Below, piece by piece: positions 3,392-24,287 of a DNA stretch of 24,403 nt. Location of the stretch: IMG/VR virus record IMGVR_UViG_3300020166_000112, positions 1-24,403 of that record, one strand, 5' to 3'. Source of the DNA: a virus. Position 1 is the stretch's first letter. Each line of letters opens with the position of its first letter. The notes below the pieces were generated by a model. It searched no databases. It was not told where the DNA came from and saw only the letters and a program-made list of their open reading frames with translations. A program made the translations under genes and the position numbers.

Positions 3392-3548
3392 TATTTAGTT
3401 CTTCTATTTTATTTTCTGCCTCTACAATTGAGGATTTTAATAATTTAACTAGATTATCATCTAGTGGTTCTCTTTCTAATTCTAACTCTAGGTCTTTTTG
3501 TCTTTGTGACAACAACCAGTTCCAATATGATAAATTATCTCCTTTCAT
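3384..3548 (-). CDS. Small 54-residue charged helical protein between fibre genes
   Basis: An ATG at 3548 overlaps the stop of the 1200-residue fibre gene in the arrangement TAATG, and the TAA at 3384-3386 overlaps the start of the 575-residue gene by 8 bases. The product begins MKGDNLSYWNWLLSQRQKDL and is Glu/Leu/Lys-rich, predicted to be almost wholly helical and possibly coiled-coil. The overlaps at both ends support a real, translationally coupled gene that length-filtered gene finders would miss. Its position inside the fibre cluster suggests a tail-fibre assembly helper or a small tail component, but no family is recognised and that role is only inferred. Confidence 0.7.
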   Translation of the reverse strand: MKGDNLSYWNWLLSQRQKDLELELEREPLDDNLVKLLKSSIVEAENKIEELNNV

Positions 3549-6500
3549 TATGACTCTGTTATTTCAACCCAAAACTGATGAAACTTATTATTGCTAGTAG
3601 GCTTCATATAACTTGTGTTAGTTCCAGAATAAATTAATGATGCACTTGATCTTAATAAACTCGCTTGAGTATCATGTTCATGATGGTACACATTGTATAC
3701 ACCTACAAATCTTTTCTTACTTGATGGTGCATCCCATTGAATGTATTTTGCATTATTAAGGTCTACTACACTTAGATTAGTAGGCTCTAGTTCACCAACA
3801 CTAAAGTCTTGTGATGTAGTTGCAACGTCAGAATAAACCCCTTGTTTAACTGCGTAAACTCTGTACTCAATTTTTCCACCTTCATCAAAAGAATTATCTA
3901 TTACAGACATTTCTTCTGCAAAGTCATCAGGAGGAATGACAGATATTAATCCAAAGTCACTTCCTACTACAGAACTAAATACTAAATATTGATCGATGTT
4001 ACCAGTTCCAGATGCAGTAATAACAACCTCTATTGTGTCACCAACTATTTGTGATAATATTTTTGGTGATTCAGGTTTAGATCTTGTGAGATATCCTCTT
4101 GTTGAGTGGTCACCCCAACCATAGGCTGTTTGCCAGTTTGCAATTCTTGTGCTGTCTACATAGTGCGTACTTCCGCCACTTGGGTATAATTTTCCAGGAA
4201 AGTCTGTATCACCATCATTTTGGAATCTCCATTCTTTTCTAGCACCCCATCCTCCAGACATATTATCTGGAAATGCAAATACTTTTAGACCACCTTCAGC
4301 ACCAATAAATACAGTCTCTTCTGCATTATTAATATTGGCATTTAATGTGCTTGACGTATCACCACCTGCTATAATTACAGCATCATCATGACCAATAGTT
4401 ATTCCTCCGTTTGCTGTAGTTCTTTTAAGTATTACTTGACCATCTACCTGTAATATATCTCCAGTATCAGGAGTAAAGTTAATTACACCTGCAATGCTAT
4501 TGTCTCTTGCACGAACACTTTCTAGATCTGATGTCTCTGAATATGACGTTAGATATCCACCATCTGCATGGTTACCCCATCCGTAGGCAGTATTCCAATT
4601 GTCTGATGATCCATCTGTTATAGAAATAGTTCCAACTTGTAAATGACCGTCAACAACTTTACTTGCAGCGTATTTTACAATTCTAACACCTTTATAACTA
4701 CCATCAACAGCATTAGAATCTCTTTGTCCAATCTGCATCATTTGAGCATTGGCAGTAGTTCTACTTGGTAAGTAATGAGTAAATGTTTGTGTCCAATCAT
4801 CACCACTAGATCCACCTTGGAAAGTCCACATATTTGTAGCATTTCTAAACCAAGTATGACCTCCATGATCTTTTACGTCTATAGAATATGTTGATTCTGC
4901 TTGAATAGTTTCATGACCATGAGTAGGTAGAGATGTAAGATATCCACCGTCAGCATGATTACCCCAACCGTAGGCTGTATCCCAATTAGCAACAGATGGG
5001 TTTGCTGTATCTATTACTTTTTCATTAGTTGATTCTTGTTCTGTAACACCTTCAAGACTTGTTACCTGGCTTATTTCCCATCCAGATGTTAAATTCATTG
5101 CACCATGGTAAAACCCTGGGTGAGCAATTACATCTACCGTAACATGACCATATTTAAATTTATCACCTACCTCTCCTAAAATTAAATAATCTTCATCTGC
5201 TGAGGATGAGAACGCATACTTTAATTCCTTAGCACTCTCTCCATGCTTTTTAATTCTTTTATTATACCATCCACTTGTCCAGTCATGTCCTGATACAGTA
5301 TAAATTGTATGTGCATCTGATGTGTACTCATATAAGGTCACCCTCATTACAAGCATAGACCAGTTCGATTTACTATGAAATCCTGGTAATTTAATTTTTA
5401 TTGCACCTGTAGAATCACCACTATCTGACCAGTGTAAAACACAATTAGCAGAGGTGTTATCTATAACAACTGGATTGTCTACATTTCCACCATTAAAAAC
5501 GGTGTCGGTGTCTGTTTTGACATAACCTGCATCGGCATGGTTACCCCAACTGTATGCTGTTTGACCTTGTTCAACATCACTAATTGTAAAACTATCTGTT
5601 GTATGAACTTGTGCCCACTTATCTTGCCAATTACTGCTTTGTTTACTTCTTATGTAAAGTTTATTATGGTGAAAGTCATGGTAAGACTGTACTGCCCAAC
5701 CTGAAGAATCCCAAAACTTAGTAGTTAGTAAACCATCTGATGCACCTTCAGGATCATCTGTAGCCTCGCTAACATCCCAAATATGAATTCCTGACTGAGT
5801 TATTGTATCTGCATTTGCTTTAAGTCTTGGGTTTAATTTTAAATACCTGCCATCATGATTGTGACTAGGTAGTGCAGTTAAGTAATCCTCGTCTGCGTGA
5901 TTACCCCAACCATGTGCAGTAACTCCGTTAGCGACATCATCACTTGAAAACTCATTAGATGTCCATACTTTCTTCCAGGGATGCCAAGCCTCACCACCTT
6001 GATGGAGTCTTAAATGCATACCTCCTGCTGAGGTGTCTCCAAAAAATAACTGTGCTCGTCTACCTGAAGATGCTGCACTTTTCAGAGTCATTACAATACT
6101 ATGGTTTGCGTGTGGTCCTTGCGTATAGTTTGTTTGACTGTCTACTCTATTATCATCTACATCGTCTAGTGAGGTAAAAAGAGCATTTGTGTGACCAGTT
6201 GTTATTATACTAGGTTTATTAAGTATAAAAGCATCGCTTGTCGTAGTTGCTTCAGTCCAATCTGATTGTACGTTTTTTTCTGCATCTGTTGGTGCGTGAG
6301 TTCCTGTAGAGAAGGTATACGCAGCATCCCATTCAGTAGGTTTATAACCATCAGCCTCAATACCACCTGTGATACGAATATTACCACCAATATTAACTCT
6401 TTCAAGATAGTCTGCTTGTGTAACATTGATACCAACATTACCACTGTCGTCTATTCCAAAAACCTCAGTTCCTTTTGAATTCCAAGTTGTGTCTTGTGGA

Positions 6501-7150
6501 AACCTTGTTCCTTTTAATGTTCTAATTACAAAAGCATTTTGACCTGGTGTGCCAACTCCTCCTCTATCATCTGCACCAACAATCCAGGATAAATCACCTC
6601 CGTTGTCATGAAATTCAATTGCTCTATCTAATATTGTAGTAGCATTACCATAGGTTCTTGGAATTGTTTTTATGTATCCTGCATCAGCATGGTTAGACCA
6701 TCCATGGGCTGTAACTCCGTTAGCAACGTCTGTTTCGGAAAAGTCTTTTGCAGTCCATAACTTGTAGTTATCTGTTTCATCACCATGTCTCCAATACAAA
6801 GAATTATCATTACTTATAGCGAACAATGTTCCTTGTGTTGAGGTAGTATTTTTAAACTTAATAGAAGCAGCATTAGAGTCATGCTTTCTTTCAAGTATTA
6901 ATCCTTTATTAAAAGTGTCGTGATTTATTGTTAACCCAACTGCTGTTGCACTGGTTATAGTTCCGCCAGATAGTTTTAAATATCTAGCATCATGGTTGTG
7001 ATCTGAGGTTGAATATCCTGCATCAGCATGGTTACCCCAACCGTAGGCAGCATCCCATTGTGTCGAAGAACCTCCATCACTTTTTGAGATTACACCATCT
7101 ACTGTTAAATCCCCTGCTACTTCTAACGAGTGAATGAATTCTATTGCCAT
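3548..7150 (-). CDS. Giant tail fibre protein with seven GWGNHAD repeats and C-terminal Fn3-like domain
   Basis: This 1200-residue protein is the largest in the window. It opens MAIEFIHSLEVAGDLTVDGV, closely resembling the start of the neighbouring 403-residue protein (MAIDFLHHLDL). Seven motif copies are encoded near 7020-7057, 6680-6720, 5890-5935, 5520-5563, 4940-4985, 4553-4595 and 4090-4135. They include AYGWGNHADAGY, the variants AHGWSNHADAGY and AYSWGNHADAGY, and a diverged last copy AYGWGDHSTRGY. They are often followed by short H(N/G)H(D/E) segments such as SHNHDGRYLKL. From about residue 1010 onward the sequence changes to Pro/Val-rich strands ending YNVYHHEHDT...FHQFWVEITES, consistent with one or two fibronectin type III-like domains. 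It is probably a long trimeric fibre, with the N-terminus attached to the virion and the repeats acting as joints between receptor-facing modules. Confidence 0.85.
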   Translation of the reverse strand: MAIEFIHSLEVAGDLTVDGVISKSDGGSSTQWDAAYGWGNHADAGYSTSDHNHDARYLKLSGGTITSATAVGLTINHDTFNKGLILERKHDSNAASIKFKNTTSTQGTLFAISNDNSLYWRHGDETDNYKLWTAKDFSETDVANGVTAHGWSNHADAGYIKTIPRTYGNATTILDRAIEFHDNGGDLSWIVGADDRGGVGTPGQNAFVIRTLKGTRFPQDTTWNSKGTEVFGIDDSGNVGINVTQADYLERVNIGGNIRITGGIEADGYKPTEWDAAYTFSTGTHAPTDAEKNVQSDWTEATTTSDAFILNKPSIITTGHTNALFTSLDDVDDNRVDSQTNYTQGPHANHSIVMTLKSAASSGRRAQLFFGDTSAGGMHLRLHQGGEAWHPWKKVWTSNEFSSDDVANGVTAHGWGNHADEDYLTALPSHNHDGRYLKLNPRLKANADTITQSGIHIWDVSEATDDPEGASDGLLTTKFWDSSGWAVQSYHDFHHNKLYIRSKQSSNWQDKWAQVHTTDSFTISDVEQGQTAYSWGNHADAGYVKTDTDTVFNGGNVDNPVVIDNTSANCVLHWSDSGDSTGAIKIKLPGFHSKSNWSMLVMRVTLYEYTSDAHTIYTVSGHDWTSGWYNKRIKKHGESAKELKYAFSSSADEDYLILGEVGDKFKYGHVTVDVIAHPGFYHGAMNLTSGWEISQVTSLEGVTEQESTNEKVIDTANPSVANWDTAYGWGNHADGGYLTSLPTHGHETIQAESTYSIDVKDHGGHTWFRNATNMWTFQGGSSGDDWTQTFTHYLPSRTTANAQMMQIGQRDSNAVDGSYKGVRIVKYAASKVVDGHLQVGTISITDGSSDNWNTAYGWGNHADGGYLTSYSETSDLESVRARDNSIAGVINFTPDTGDILQVDGQVILKRTTANGGITIGHDDAVIIAGGDTSSTLNANINNAEETVFIGAEGGLKVFAFPDNMSGGWGARKEWRFQNDGDTDFPGKLYPSGGSTHYVDSTRIANWQTAYGWGDHSTRGYLTRSKPESPKILSQIVGDTIEVVITASGTGNIDQYLVFSSVVGSDFGLISVIPPDDFAEEMSVIDNSFDEGGKIEYRVYAVKQGVYSDVATTSQDFSVGELEPTNLSVVDLNNAKYIQWDAPSSKKRFVGVYNVYHHEHDTQASLLRSSASLIYSGTNTSYMKPTSNNKFHQFWVEITES

Positions 7151-18201: not shown

Positions 18202-18375
18202 ATGATGACAATGCAAGACTTAAAATTATACCTCATTAACGCAGGGACGTTTACAATCTCTATGACACAAATCGATACCGTACTTAAAATATCATTACTT
18301 GTTATTTCAATCGGATACACCGCACAGCGTTGGTATTACCTGAGACAAGAAAATAAAAATAAAGACAATGGATAA
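18202..18375 (+). CDS. Small single-pass membrane protein, holin-like candidate
   Basis: The 57-residue product starts MMTMQDLKLYLINAGTFTIS and contains a hydrophobic stretch TVLKISLLVISIGYTAQRWY at about residues 26-45, followed by a charged tail ending RQENKNKDNG. The arrangement is one short transmembrane helix with a positively charged C-terminus. The ATG is the first of two in tandem (18202, 18205). The frame ends 8 bases inside the next gene (start 18368), which supports translational coupling. Small phage proteins of this design are often holins or virion membrane-active proteins. A holin role is only a guess because no endolysin is visible nearby. Confidence 0.65.
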   Translation: MMTMQDLKLYLINAGTFTISMTQIDTVLKISLLVISIGYTAQRWYYLRQENKNKDNG

Positions 18376-18880
18376 AATTGCAAAACTTAGGCTGAAAGCA
18401 AAACTTGCTGAAGATTCGGGTGACCACCAAAAAGCATATAATATAAGAAAGAAAATTAAAGGACTTATTGCTAAGGCAGAATATAAAAAAGCCAAAGGTC
18501 CTTCTGGATTAAGTAAAATTATCAAGAAAGTAAAAACTAAAGGTGCAGAACTTGTAAATAAAGTAAATTTTAATTCTGATGATGATGATGCCCCTAAAGA
18601 GAAAAAAGTAAAGAAAGTAAAGAAAAGAAAGAAGGAAAAAAAACCTAAAACTACTACGACTACTTCTTCTACATCTACTAGTGTTTCTGGTACATATGGT
18701 TTAGCATATGGCAAAGACGGTAAAAAAGGAGTTGGATCAGTAACTTATAATGGTAAGACATATAAACCAGGTGATCAAGGCTATGAAACTGCAAAAGGAG
18801 TGTTTATGGAAACCATTGAGCGAAAAGAAGCAGCAGAAGCAAGAATGCAAGAATTAAAAAAGAAAAAAAGAAATAAGTAA
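18368..18880 (+). CDS. Lys-rich basic protein of unknown function
   Basis: This 170-residue protein has a helical basic N-terminus (MDKIAKLRLKAKLAEDSGDH, with ISx-like KAYNIRKKIKGLIAKAEYKK). A linker holds an acidic DDDDA patch next to a Lys cluster (KEKKVKKVKKRKKEKKPK) and a Thr/Ser run (about residues 95-107). A short domain with SGTYGLAYGKDGKKGVGSVT and YNGKTYKPGDQGYETAKG follows, and the end is a Lys-rich helix. The Lys cluster is encoded by a nearly pure purine tract (about 18596-18650). No family is recognised. The charge suggests nucleic-acid contact, for example an internal head protein or DNA-condensing protein, but that is inference. It overlaps the preceding gene by 8 bases and shares one base with the next (TAATG). 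Confidence 0.65.
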   Translation: MDKIAKLRLKAKLAEDSGDHQKAYNIRKKIKGLIAKAEYKKAKGPSGLSKIIKKVKTKGAELVNKVNFNSDDDDAPKEKKVKKVKKRKKEKKPKTTTTTSSTSTSVSGTYGLAYGKDGKKGVGSVTYNGKTYKPGDQGYETAKGVFMETIERKEAAEARMQELKKKKRNK

Positions 18881-19101
18881 TGGCAGCAAAAAGAGACTAT
18901 AAAGACGAATATAAAAAGTTTCAGTCTTCTCCTGCTATGATAAAATATAGAGCACTTCTAAACAAGTACAATCGTAAGAGAGGTACATACGGAAATGGTG
19001 ATGGTTTAGATGCATCTCATAAAGATGGTAAAATAGTTGGTTTTGAACCTTCTGTGATAAATAAAAGTAGAAAAGAAAAAAGTAGACTTAAAAAATCATA
19101 A
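18880..19101 (+). CDS. Small degenerate HNH-like basic protein
   Basis: This 73-residue protein reads MAAKRDYKDEYKKFQSSPAM, then RALLNKYNRKRGTYGNGDGL, DASHKDGKIVGFEPSVINKS and RKEKSRLKKS. The order N-R-(K)R-x(5,7)-G-D-G-x-D-x-S-H-K-x-G followed by an N-x-S-R segment resembles a family of short phage proteins related to HNH nucleases, in which D(A/V)(S/D)H matches the first HNH histidine strand and N(K/R)SR the later part. The second metal-binding histidine is not evident, so it is probably not an active nuclease and may be a structural or DNA-binding form. ATG at 18880 overlaps the upstream stop as TAATG. The family link is tentative. Confidence 0.65.
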   Translation: MAAKRDYKDEYKKFQSSPAMIKYRALLNKYNRKRGTYGNGDGLDASHKDGKIVGFEPSVINKSRKEKSRLKKS

Positions 19102-19103
19102 TT

Positions 19104-19178
19104 ATGGCATATTCAAAAATTAAAAAAATGTGTAAGTGTGGAAAGCCTTACAGCAAGTGTAAAAAATGTAACAAGTAA
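19104..19178 (+). CDS. 24-residue four-cysteine microprotein (zinc-ribbon-like)
   Basis: A 24-codon frame starts at ATG 19104, 2 bases after the previous stop, and ends 3 bases before the next ATG. The product is basic and contains CKCGKPYSKCKKCNK, that is C-x-C-x6-C-x2-C, a plausible single zinc site. ATG-GCA initiation and leader spacing match the neighbours. The regular spacing in a gap too large to be an ordinary intergenic junction here supports a real gene. The likely role is binding of nucleic acid or a protein partner, unproven. Confidence 0.6.
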   Translation: MAYSKIKKMCKCGKPYSKCKKCNK

Positions 19179-19181
19179 GTT

Positions 19182-19370
19182 ATGGCATCAGAAACACCTA
19201 AAGAGATAAGAAAGAAAAAAAGATCAGACAAGCGTGCTGCAAATGCTAAAAAACGTGCGGAAAGATTGAGAAATAGTACAGAAGAAAAATCTAGTACATA
19301 CAATACTTCTACATTAGATCCTAACGCAAGTGTTGATTACAATGCTATTAATAAAGCAATGTTTAAATAA
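19182..19370 (+). CDS. Small basic protein of unknown function
   Basis: This 62-residue protein begins MASETPKEIRKKKRSDKRAA and continues NAKKRAERLRNSTEEK. The strongly basic helical N-terminal half is followed by a Ser/Thr/Asn-rich C-terminus (STYNTSTLDPNASVDYNAIN). The ATG is 3 bases after the four-cysteine microprotein and the stop is 5 bases before the next gene. No family is recognised. Like its neighbours it is probably a nucleic-acid-contacting or virion-internal protein, judged only from charge and context. Confidence 0.55.
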   Translation: MASETPKEIRKKKRSDKRAANAKKRAERLRNSTEEKSSTYNTSTLDPNASVDYNAINKAMFK

Positions 19371-19375
19371 ATATT

Positions 19376-20284
19376 ATGGAAGACGAAGAAATTCAAGGAC
19401 AAGAGACCGATCCTAAAAAAATTGCAGCACAAAAAAGAGAAGCAGCACTTGCGGCTAGACAAGCAGCAATTAAAAAAAGGAATGATTTAATAGCCACTAA
19501 AAGAGCAGAATTAGCAGCAACTAAAAAAGCAAAACTTGAGGCTCGTGCTAAGGCTATGGCAGAAAGAAGAGCAGCCATAAACGCAAAAAAACAAGAAGGT
19601 TTAGATGCGAGACAAGCAAAGATTGATAAAAACAATAGTGACATAGCGATGGAAAAAGAATATAATTCTATCGAAAAAAAGCGTAGAAATACAGAACAAG
19701 TCAATCAAGAAAAAGAAGATAATTACGACTGGAATTACGTAGGAGGTGATGCAAACACTGCTAATAAAAGACAGAGAACCGAAATTATTGAAGGTGAAAA
19801 AGAAGTAGAAAGAATAATTAAGGGTAGTAAAGAGATTAACACATTCAAACCAACTGGTAAAACAGATGAAGATGTATATAACGCAGACCCTAGTTTAAAA
19901 AAGAAATACCCAACCTTCTCAAGTTTTAGAATTGCTGCACAAAAATTTCGTGATGATCAGGTTAAAACTGTAGAGACAGAGGAAAAAGTTATCGAAAAAG
20001 TTCCTACTAGAGAAGAAAAGGTTATTACTCAAACTAGAGAAGACTGGATCAAAAAACAATCTTGGGCTGATGGATTACCCGAAGGAATGGTAGGTAGTTT
20101 AGCAAGAAGTATGCGTAAAAGAGGTGAAGACATGACTCCACAACAGTTATACGATTTATTTAAAAGTCAAGCATCTGAAAAAGAATCTGCTGAATGGGCC
20201 AGAAAAAATGGATTTGATTATTTATTAGGCGGTAGAGGTAGTAGAGGATCATCTACAACAAGAGGTAAAACAAAATTCAACTAA
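19376..20284 (+). CDS. Coiled-coil protein of unknown function, Ala/Lys/Arg-rich
   Basis: This 302-residue protein is the largest of the plus-strand run. Residues 1-110 form a highly charged helix with repeats of AxxKR and RxAxxxAK character (KREAALAARQAAIKKRNDLI, ARAKAMAERRAAINAKKQEG), very probably a long coiled coil. The middle contains DPSLKKKYPTFSSFRIAAQK, then an acidic-basic region with the near-repeat EEKVIEKVPTREEKVI. The C-terminus, EGMVGSLARSMRKRGEDMTP, is helical and ends in a Gly/Ser/Arg tail (GGRGSRGSSTTRGKTKFN). No known family is recognised. Possible roles are a virion-internal or tail-associated protein. Its stop overlaps the next ATG as TAATG. Confidence 0.65.
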   Translation: MEDEEIQGQETDPKKIAAQKREAALAARQAAIKKRNDLIATKRAELAATKKAKLEARAKAMAERRAAINAKKQEGLDARQAKIDKNNSDIAMEKEYNSIEKKRRNTEQVNQEKEDNYDWNYVGGDANTANKRQRTEIIEGEKEVERIIKGSKEINTFKPTGKTDEDVYNADPSLKKKYPTFSSFRIAAQKFRDDQVKTVETEEKVIEKVPTREEKVITQTREDWIKKQSWADGLPEGMVGSLARSMRKRGEDMTPQQLYDLFKSQASEKESAEWARKNGFDYLLGGRGSRGSSTTRGKTKFN

Positions 20285-20785: not shown

Positions 20786-21061
20786 CTAGTCTGATTTCCA
20801 GGTATGGTAGATTTCTTTGAGTCTTTCATGGTGCATAGTTGTTAGCATTCGTTTAAATTGTTTTTTATCTCCAAAGTAACTGTGACATTCTCTACACAAT
20901 GCTTGCAGGTTTTCTGGGGTGTCCTTTTTATTTGATCCACCCATTCCTCTGGGGTGTATATGATGAATATCTACAGCGGTTCTATCACAAACCTCACATC
21001 CAATCCAATCTCCTGGATCAATACAAAACGCTTCGTGATATACTTTAGTATGTTTCTTCAT
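20786..21061 (-). CDS. HNH endonuclease
   Basis: This 91-residue protein has a zinc-supported HNH (beta-beta-alpha metal) motif: C22-x2-C25 (CEVC), DIHHIH at 31-36 with H33 or H34 as general base, N51 (PENLQ), and C56-x2-C59-H60 (CRECH). I chose ATG 21061 because it overlaps the upstream stop as ATGA. An in-frame ATG at 21124 would add 21 residues of poor character and overlap the upstream gene by 67 bases. Compact HNH proteins of this length in phages act as DNA nickases, packaging-associated nucleases or remnants of homing endonucleases. Here it lies in an operon with a PD-(D/E)XK nuclease, suggesting a DNA-processing role against host or competitor DNA, which is inferred. All key residues are present, so it should be active. 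Confidence 0.88.
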   Translation of the reverse strand: MKKHTKVYHEAFCIDPGDWIGCEVCDRTAVDIHHIHPRGMGGSNKKDTPENLQALCRECHSYFGDKKQFKRMLTTMHHERLKEIYHTWKSD

Positions 21062-21327
21062 TGTGTTATTAAGTAAATTGCATAGCCTAATATTACATTC
21101 ATATTGACTGCAACAATATTCCATTGCTTTGCCACAAAAACTTGGGGTAGCGATAGTATACCACCTATTACATACGTTACAGCACCCATATTATCATATT
21201 TAAGTAGATAGGGTGATATCATAATAAAGGCTGTACCCATATATCCCAATCTTTGGGAAATTTTTTCTATGGGGGTAAGTCTACGAGTCTTAACTAGACG
21301 TTTTAACAAGTCTTTTATCATATCCAT
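21058..21327 (-). CDS. Small multi-pass membrane protein
   Basis: This 89-residue protein has a basic amphipathic N-terminus (MDMIKDLLKRLVKTRRLTPI) followed by two or three hydrophobic segments, LGYMGTAFIMISPYLL (about 27-42), MGAVTYVIGGILSLPQVF (about 47-64) and IVAVNMNVILGYAIYLI (about 71-87). The segment LPQV...KQWN loosely recalls PQ-loop-type small transporters, but length and detail are not enough for that call. It could be a holin or an inner-membrane accessory protein. It overlaps the upstream 54-residue membrane gene by 10 bases and the downstream HNH gene by 4 bases. Confidence 0.7.
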   Translation of the reverse strand: MDMIKDLLKRLVKTRRLTPIEKISQRLGYMGTAFIMISPYLLKYDNMGAVTYVIGGILSLPQVFVAKQWNIVAVNMNVILGYAIYLITQ

Positions 21328-21494: not shown

Positions 21495-22046
21495 TTATTT
21501 GGGGGTATTTAAATCTGGGGTGACATATCTATACTTACGTTTGTCAACCTTATATTCATAATACTTGTTTCTATCATTGATTGTAACCACATTCCATTCC
21601 TTGATCTTATCCTTTTCAAAGTCCAATAAAATATATCTGTGATCTGATAAGAACAGAACAAACAATACAAAGTCTACTTCCAACTTATCTATTGTAAACA
21701 TGTTTACCTTTAAAGATCTTTCACAACCCTTAACATCTATTCTTTTTCCGTTAACTATTAGATCTGGATCACTTACACCTTTTTCTTTTACAAATGCTGA
21801 GGTTGTATAATTAACCCCTTTTAGATCATAATGATGCCTAACTAAAAGTTCCCCTAATATTCCTTTAAAATCTGTGTAGAACTCATTGTCTATAGGCTCA
21901 TCAAATAAAATTGGATGCTTGTATTTGTAACTTCTAGACTTCCAGTAAAGTTTTTTATAATGGTCTCTGTTTGCCATGACACGAGTGTCAACATATAATC
22001 TTGCGTGCTCAAAAATACACTCTGGTATCTTATAAATTTCGTCCAT
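21495..22046 (-). CDS. PD-(D/E)XK-type nuclease
   Basis: This 183-residue protein shows a readable PD-(D/E)XK core: E66 in GILGELL, then PD at 94-95 (SDPDLIVNG) and D104-V-K106 (KRIDVKGCE), with a predicted following helix and strand. This is the fold of restriction endonucleases, Holliday-junction resolvases and many phage nucleases. The spacing (helix with Glu, D95, beta hairpin, D104-x-K106) fits an intact active site. Function is therefore metal-dependent DNA cleavage, with the substrate unknown. The start at 22046 overlaps the GroES-like gene end by 17 bases, showing tight coupling. A resolvase, a host-DNA-degrading nuclease and a defence-related nuclease are all possible. Confidence 0.75.
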   Translation of the reverse strand: MDEIYKIPECIFEHARLYVDTRVMANRDHYKKLYWKSRSYKYKHPILFDEPIDNEFYTDFKGILGELLVRHHYDLKGVNYTTSAFVKEKGVSDPDLIVNGKRIDVKGCERSLKVNMFTIDKLEVDFVLFVLFLSDHRYILLDFEKDKIKEWNVVTINDRNKYYEYKVDKRKYRYVTPDLNTPK

Positions 22047-22665
22047 TTAAAACCTTCCCTAATATTACATCTTGTGTCATTACGTAATAATCCTTATCCT
22101 CGATTGTATTAAGAAATGCATTTCTCTCATGAAATCGTACTGTATCGCCTGCTGTTAAACCTAGATCTTCTTCACCTCTGATGGGTGTACCTATGTATCT
22201 GAGATGCCCTTCTTCTTCACTACGAATGGGTGCCCCTAGGTAAATAGAACCTGCCATATTCTCAGTCATTTTAGGCTCAATTAAGACATGGTTGGCAATA
22301 GCGGTCAATTTATCACCTCTGGTAAAGCAAAAGCATTGTTCTAATTCAACAAAATAGATGTCCCTTTCCCCAAATACTAAATTATCCTCTTGTACCGTCA
22401 AGTAATTAAAATAGACGATATCGCCCAACTCTAATTCCTGCCTTAAAAAGTCTCCTCTCGTATTGCTGCACCATTCCCCTCTAGGCAAAGCCACGACACT
22501 TCCACAGATTGTAACATGTTGCTCTGGGTTCCAGGATACATCTAAATAAAGTTTGCCAGTTGAGAATTCTACTGTATCATTATACTTTTTTGTAATTTTA
22601 ACCGCTATTTTTTGGCCAATCATATCCATTGCTGCTAAGATAATAGAATATGAACCATCGTTCAT
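22030..22665 (-). CDS. Tandem GroES-like co-chaperonin
   Basis: This 211-residue protein looks like two GroES folds in a row. Domain 1 (about 16-117) has IGQKIAVKITKKYND, a strand LYLDVSW, VTICGSVVALP and LELGDIVYFNYLTVQEDN, ending YFVELEQCFCF. Domain 2 (about 119-207) has LTAIANHVLIEPK, GSIYLGAP, EEGHLRYIGTP, LTAGDTVRFHE and DYYVMTQDVILGKV. Each follows the GroES pattern (hydrophobic V-x-V start, E/G-x-V turn, GD-x-V strand, late D-I-x-x-V). Phage co-chaperonins such as T4 gp31 help the host GroEL fold the capsid protein; here the expected partner is host GroEL and the client perhaps the capsid protein. Met13 and Met15 are alternative starts. It begins the minus-strand operon just after the palindromic region. 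Confidence 0.75.
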   Translation of the reverse strand: MNDGSYSIILAAMDMIGQKIAVKITKKYNDTVEFSTGKLYLDVSWNPEQHVTICGSVVALPRGEWCSNTRGDFLRQELELGDIVYFNYLTVQEDNLVFGERDIYFVELEQCFCFTRGDKLTAIANHVLIEPKMTENMAGSIYLGAPIRSEEEGHLRYIGTPIRGEEDLGLTAGDTVRFHERNAFLNTIEDKDYYVMTQDVILGKVLNGRNL

Positions 22666-23939: not shown

Positions 23940-23972
23940 TTTGGATGTTAATAAAATAATGCGTTATATTTG
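23940..23972 (+). promoter_or_regulatory. Bacteroidota-type promoter (TTTG - 21 bases - TATATTTG)
   Basis: TTTG at 23940-23943 and TATATTTG at 23965-23972 are separated by 21 bases and match the known Bacteroidota primary sigma factor consensus (TTTG, 19-21 bases, TAnnTTTG). Transcription should begin near 23979, giving a leader of about 60 bases to the ATG at 24042. That leader contains a small CGAG/CTCG hairpin and an AAACTGAAA segment just before the start codon. Confidence 0.8.
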
Positions 23973-24041
23973 TACCATCGTTCAGCGAGCATGACACTCG
24001 AAACGCTAATTAACTGAATATCAATTATTTAAACTGAAATT

Positions 24042-24287
24042 ATGAATTACTTAAGTACAGAACTGCAAACAGAATACCTTCCGAACTTCACAGGTATCAA
24101 AGTCCACAACGCTAGAATATCATACAGTGATTGGGGCGAGCATGGTGTTGATTTCAACTACTACAAAGATCCTTCTGATCCATTCAATCAACTATTTCAA
24201 GAAGATTTATATAAGCCTTTTTCAGGCGGTACAGAATTTACTAGCAAAAAAGAAGCCTTAAGATTTATTAACTCTGTAAACCAATAA
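24042..24287 (+). CDS. Small acidic protein of unknown function, first gene after a strong promoter
   Basis: This 81-residue protein begins MNYLSTELQTEYLPNFTGIK, continues VHNARISYSDWGEHGVDFNY and ends FTSKKEALRFINSVNQ. It is rich in aromatic residues (Tyr, Phe, Trp) and acidic, with no membrane segment or recognised motif. It is the first gene behind the clearest promoter in the window, which suggests an early-expressed protein, perhaps one that modifies host processes. The start is preceded by AAACTGAAATT, the same kind of leader as the partial gene at the window end. The function is unknown. Confidence 0.65.
   Translation: MNYLSTELQTEYLPNFTGIKVHNARISYSDWGEHGVDFNYYKDPSDPFNQLFQEDLYKPFSGGTEFTSKKEALRFINSVNQ

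Follow-up and report, generated by a model that had tools for sequence, protein, structure and literature searches.

Does one gene of a marine Bacteroidota phage encode two GroES-type domains in a single chain, and what would a protein with an even number of domains do on a seven-fold chaperonin? The gene lies in 24,403 nucleotides of viral DNA (positions 1 to 24,403 of IMG/VR record IMGVR_UViG_3300020166_000112; the whole stretch is called the window here), for which a preliminary description had claimed a phage co-chaperonin of two fused GroES-type domains. The protein is indeed two fused GroES-like domains, with domain 2 certain and domain 1 supported by family profiles and structure prediction. 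Both ingredients, phage co-chaperonins and the double-domain co-chaperonins of plastids and apicoplasts, were already known; the phage tandem family is already in databases under plain labels, and its architecture is of a known kind. The papers we consulted treat double-domain co-chaperonins as a feature of plants, algae, and apicomplexans, and the fit of an even domain number to a seven-fold chaperonin is an unsettled question there. Our search of the open literature (subscription papers lay outside it) found no description of the double-domain form in phages.

Gene, Upstream Elements, and Neighborhood

The listed open reading frame (22030-22665, minus strand, ATG to stop) encodes 211 amino acids. 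Its conserved start was placed at Met13 (22629) because the first 12 codons vary among homologues and because, in one homologue (L004), a stop codon in the same frame immediately precedes the corresponding Met; the resulting protein has 199 amino acids (22033..22629, minus strand; stop codon, 22030-22032). Full-length homologues in IMG/VR share 49-100% identity with it. Comparison of the window gene with four relatives gave dN of 0.11-0.13 and dS of 0.84-1.25, with changes mostly at third codon positions, which indicates purifying selection; the open reading frame is a real gene. No phage match to the protein was found by tblastn, the family link coming instead from profiles and structure, and no prophage relative was found in genome contigs.

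Upstream lies the palindrome GAAC-NATN-GTTC (22652..22663, no strand assigned), which close relatives carry in the corresponding position, some 20-35 bases ahead of the conserved start, and which is possibly a phage operator or promoter element. It recurs at a few other sites, and several copies directly follow AGTCCCTAGGGACT; besides the one upstream of the window gene, copies are at 23972-23983 in the window (one mismatch) and in related contigs (L038:222, L052:882/1980, and L060:5365). Between palindrome and gene, TATCTTAG (22635..22642, minus strand) ends 5 bases ahead of the conserved ATG and resembles a Bacteroidota -7 box (TAnnTTTG), a putative promoter element.

In the window, the tandem gene is read in the same direction as the head genes, and other genes, some on the opposite strand, lie between it and the terminase. 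A 183-amino-acid protein (21498-22046, minus strand) overlaps the end of the tandem gene; its DPDLIVNGKRIDVKG stretch resembles a PD-(D/E)XK nuclease motif, and it had no PHROG or Pfam match. Its neighbor is an HNH nuclease (20789-21124). Four small lysine-rich proteins are encoded on the opposite strand (18368-20284, plus strand), between the nuclease genes and the terminase, in a block whose gene content differs among related contigs. Tail-fibre-like proteins (1-1662 and 3548-7150, minus strand) carry many G-W-[GS]-[ND]-H-A-D repeats (e.g., TAHGWGNHADAGY), and this repeat is common to neighboring genes.

Two GroES-Like Domains

Domain 2 (residues 107-199; 22033..22311, minus strand) is identified by its own sequence: residues 107-193 cover positions 1-93 of the 93-position Cpn10 profile PF00166 at 34.4-34.6 bits (curated cut-off, 21.1 bits). 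Its model contains the GroES beta-barrel (VIA-align Z of 10.3 and rmsd of 2.2 over 87 residues against GroES 8wuc_a). An alcohol-dehydrogenase-type GroES-like fold was considered and rejected, as such structures ranked under the GroES rows, the protein lacks a nucleotide-binding domain, and it is Cpn10 that its profile match points to.

Domain 1 (residues 1-106; 22312..22629, minus strand) is seen through its relatives and through structure. The window copy falls below the Pfam cut-off (phrog_3188, E of 0.069; phrog_13932, E of 0.0044). Domain 1 of relatives, searched alone, gave E of 0.001 and 0.011 for PF00166, both below the cut-off, and 6e-5 for phrog_3188, and four homologues (G007, G008, G012, and G016) have first-half Cpn10 matches separate from that of the second half. 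Modelled alone, the domain reached a pLDDT of 65, which is low confidence; with this low-confidence model, the first 16 Foldseek matches were nonetheless GroES, Cpn10, gp31, or Cpn20 (E of 0.04-0.55; best probability, 0.99), and the first 15 in VIA-align were all Cpn10/GroES, gp31, or Cpn20 (Z of 4.3-6.5).

The AlphaFold2 model of the full-length protein (24 sequences; mean pLDDT, 81; pTM, 0.78) found its best solved matches in the Chlamydomonas Cpn20-type subunits 7ekq_R and 7ekq_Q (E of 2-3e-5). The match to 7ekq_R is full length (E of 2.2e-5; VIA Z of 9.7 over model residues 4-194; rmsd, 7.0). Among viral models, a Cellulophaga phage phi18:3 protein annotated "chaperonin cpn10" (200 amino acids; E of 4e-8) came second, behind a 186-amino-acid protein. 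Two of the checks proposed in the preliminary description agree with it: in the GroES profile search, domain 2 passes the Pfam cut-off for Cpn10 and domain 1 of relatives matches Cpn10 profiles, and with the predicted monomer structure, either half finds GroES proteins. An N-terminal extension unrelated to GroES, joined to a single GroES domain, is accordingly highly improbable; it would explain the missing Pfam match of the window's domain 1 alone and the poor stand-alone model, but not the matches of relatives' domain 1, the GroES-family proteins that come first when the stand-alone domain is used in structure searches, or the full-length match to Cpn20.

The profile boundaries put the end of domain 1 near residue 104 and the start of domain 2 at residue 107, leaving a linker of about two residues, a length that would fit two neighboring ring positions. 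Direct comparison of the domains by hhalign found nothing (best stretch, 9 columns; probability, 8.5%), so that a recent duplication of the halves is without support.

Loops and an Internal Echo

The mobile-loop places of both domains retain, across the 24 sequences, an invariant G and then a hydrophobic triplet, the loop of domain 1 being assigned by position. The putative mobile loop of domain 1 (residues 13-37; 22519..22593, minus strand) was located from alignment columns and holds an invariant G-K-L-[YF]-[LMIV]-D-V; within it, model pLDDT is low at residues 29-36. That of domain 2 (residues 120-141; 22207..22272, minus strand) holds G-[STL]-I-[YWI]-[VLIM] and was placed by alignment and Cpn10 profile position, and the latter also places a putative roof loop (residues 148-160; 22150..22188, minus strand).

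A short element is echoed within domain 2, as YLGAPIRSEEE (22210..22242, minus strand) and YIGTPIRGEED (22165..22197, minus strand). In the window copy, the pair scores 43 with BLOSUM62 against 31 for the best of 300 shuffles, and the similarity is therefore not chance. The earlier suggestion of a duplicated loop has nevertheless been abandoned, as has any inserted repeat: domain 2 aligns end to end with Cpn10, with no extra segment and zero residues added, and the copies occupy unlike structural positions (copy 1, the end of the mobile loop; copy 2, a strand and the roof loop). Nor is the echo conserved, being weaker or absent in relatives and missing from distant ones.

Phage Tandem Family

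All 24 window-family sequences match phrog_13932, a two-domain family labelled "co-chaperonin GroES" in PHROGs, co-linearly, and the match of the window protein covers both domains (E of 1.9e-8; residues 8-192 on positions 7-198 of 200). Two Cellulophaga phage proteins, phi18:3 gp096 and phi38:1 gp089, fit it almost perfectly and presumably were among the sequences that founded it. Calle_1 is in phrog_13932, and the tandem family also takes in Elemovirus gp30 (180 amino acids) and a protein of phage ctfjg026 (187 amino acids); tblastn with the latter recovered 85 phage records and about 540 IMG/VR stretches. Phages of Cellulophaga and Flavobacterium have the tandem gene next to terminase and portal, and in genera other than that of the window it comes immediately before these genes or is one or two genes away from them. 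The window terminase is homologous to those of other tandem-bearing phages (31-33% identity to the best).

Against the principal tandem proteins of other phages, hidden Markov models of each window-family domain ranked the corresponding domain best, and searches in the opposite direction agreed, in a comparison where the small database makes the ranking weigh more than the E-values and where domain 1 of ctfjg026 is the weakest case. This domain-by-domain correspondence indicates that the fusion is ancestral, older than the divergence of these phages. Database labels can be corrected accordingly, as many tandem copies read "hypothetical protein" or plain "cpn10"; copies labelled "hypothetical protein" include L140 (MW202828, 3896-4459) and that of phi38:1 (KC821614).

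Partner Chaperonin Genes

A separate single-domain GroES was present in all 11 other tandem-bearing genomes of at least 56 kb that were examined (phi18:3, phi38:1, Elemovirus, ctfjg026, and seven IMG/VR contigs), which represent about five lineages, since six of the seven contigs are ctfjg026-like. GroEL was found in 9 of the 11, being absent in phi18:3 and one contig (G026). The phage single-domain GroES sits with GroEL, apart from the tandem gene beside the terminase.

In the window clade, neither GroEL nor a second, single-domain GroES was found in any of five contigs of 56-64 kb. Four of the five (G001, G003, G006, and G012) appear to share a single map in circularly permuted forms; the window open reading frame at 24042 corresponds to G001:52 and the tandem gene to G001:61334, which gives a map of about 63 kb. 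With what looks like one circularly permuted map of that size, the absence is not just truncation, and the clade either lost the GroEL and single-domain GroES pair or never had it.

Proposed Function and Alternatives

The window protein is probably a double-domain co-chaperonin that acts with host GroEL and helps to fold phage virion proteins. Each chain would supply two neighboring GroES positions, head to tail across a joint of about two residues, and the mobile loop of each domain would offer its hydrophobic triplet to a GroEL apical domain. The protein would replace or join host GroES as the lid, most likely on host GroEL because genes for GroEL and for a second GroES are both missing from the window clade. 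By analogy with gp31 of T4, it may aid virion-protein folding during virion assembly, a role suggested by a gene read with head genes in the window and lying near the terminase in other genera; the family as a whole suggests a dedicated folding helper whose gene sits beside the packaging genes. The evidence shows the two domains, the family, the ancestral fusion, and the lack of other chaperonin genes in the clade, while what we infer extends to host GroEL binding, timing, clients, and ring stoichiometry. Counting against this reading, domain 1 of the window protein is hard to see by sequence and poorly modelled alone (pLDDT, 65; best Foldseek E, 0.04).

For the stoichiometry, two options are live: mixed rings that take in a single-domain subunit, which would be host GroES in this clade and phage GroES in others, or homo-oligomers in which one site is mismatched. 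Mixed rings have been proposed for plastid Cpn20 and Cpn10, and phages might separately have reached this chloroplast-like answer, with three double-domain chains and one single-domain chain forming a seven-position lid; most phages would bring their own single-domain subunit and the window clade would borrow host GroES, giving a mixed phage-host lid. We consider this conceivable but somewhat unlikely. A homo-oligomer with no single-domain partner, which we hold to be a reasonable possibility but less likely than not, would have four chains, leaving one of its eight domains unbound, or three chains, whose six domains would leave one GroEL site empty. It suits a clade that encodes no such partner, and there are precedents: Arabidopsis and Plasmodium Cpn20 are mainly tetrameric, and Pf-Cpn20 replaces GroES on its own (PMC3542282), and six- and eight-domain concatemers function with GroEL (reviewed in PMC5780408). 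However, a single-domain GroES is encoded in all 11 of the large tandem-bearing genomes outside the window clade, and the host's own GroES would be there in every case.

The domains might also divide the work, domain 2 being the only working GroES domain and domain 1 a module specialised in assembling the ring, choosing clients, or shaping the chamber. Domain 1 is less Cpn10-like yet better conserved in the family (mean identity, 0.71 versus 0.60; higher in 271 of 276 pairs among 24 sequences), and W53 and C54 in its roof region are invariant, but its mobile-loop place also has an invariant G-K-L-[YF]-[LMIV], and GroES is still what structure searches find for it; we think this division unlikely. 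The location of the gene raises a broader question, as a terminase-side gene, set against a GroES gene beside GroEL, may have a different job from single-domain GroES. That the fold serves somewhere other than as a GroEL lid, for example next to the terminase, in packaging or the assembly of heads, or as a ClpP cap, seems quite improbable to us. The gene does adjoin the large terminase and portal genes in several genera, apart from the phage GroEL/GroES pair, and among solved structures the nearest are the Cpn20/23 subunits from a ClpP complex (7ekq), but the loop triplets are retained, and a dedicated lid that folds head proteins explains the location equally well. An old and widespread phage tandem family with one clade lacking a single-domain partner is natural material with which to probe the symmetry question in bacteria.

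Comparison with Known Systems

The nearest counterparts are the tandem proteins of Cellulophaga phages, Elemovirus, and ctfjg026, which like the window protein have two GroES-like domains in 180-200 amino acids and are encoded near terminase and portal, although phi18:3 gp096 shares only about 16% identity with it by structural alignment. These phages also carry a single-domain GroES and usually GroEL, whereas the window clade has neither.

Bacterial GroES/Cpn10 (PF00166) has one domain of about 95 amino acids per chain, and domain 2 of the window protein matches that whole profile. Like the window protein, T4 gp31 is a phage-encoded co-chaperonin with the GroES fold, and structure searches listed its entries 1g31 and 2cgt, but it forms a heptamer with one domain per chain, in contrast to two in the window protein, to which no sequence match of gp31 was found.

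Plastid and apicoplast Cpn20 (Chlamydomonas Cpn20/Cpn23 in 7ekq, Arabidopsis Cpn20/Cpn21, and Pf-Cpn20) has the same head-to-tail arrangement of GroES domains. It differs in being a nuclear-encoded organelle protein with about 18% identity to the window protein, and in plastids it works with Cpn60 and Cpn10; the common architecture is no proof that the fusion descends from a common ancestor. Plastid-type Cpn20 replaces GroES in E. coli (PMC3542282), and the double-domain architecture is thus compatible with GroEL function.
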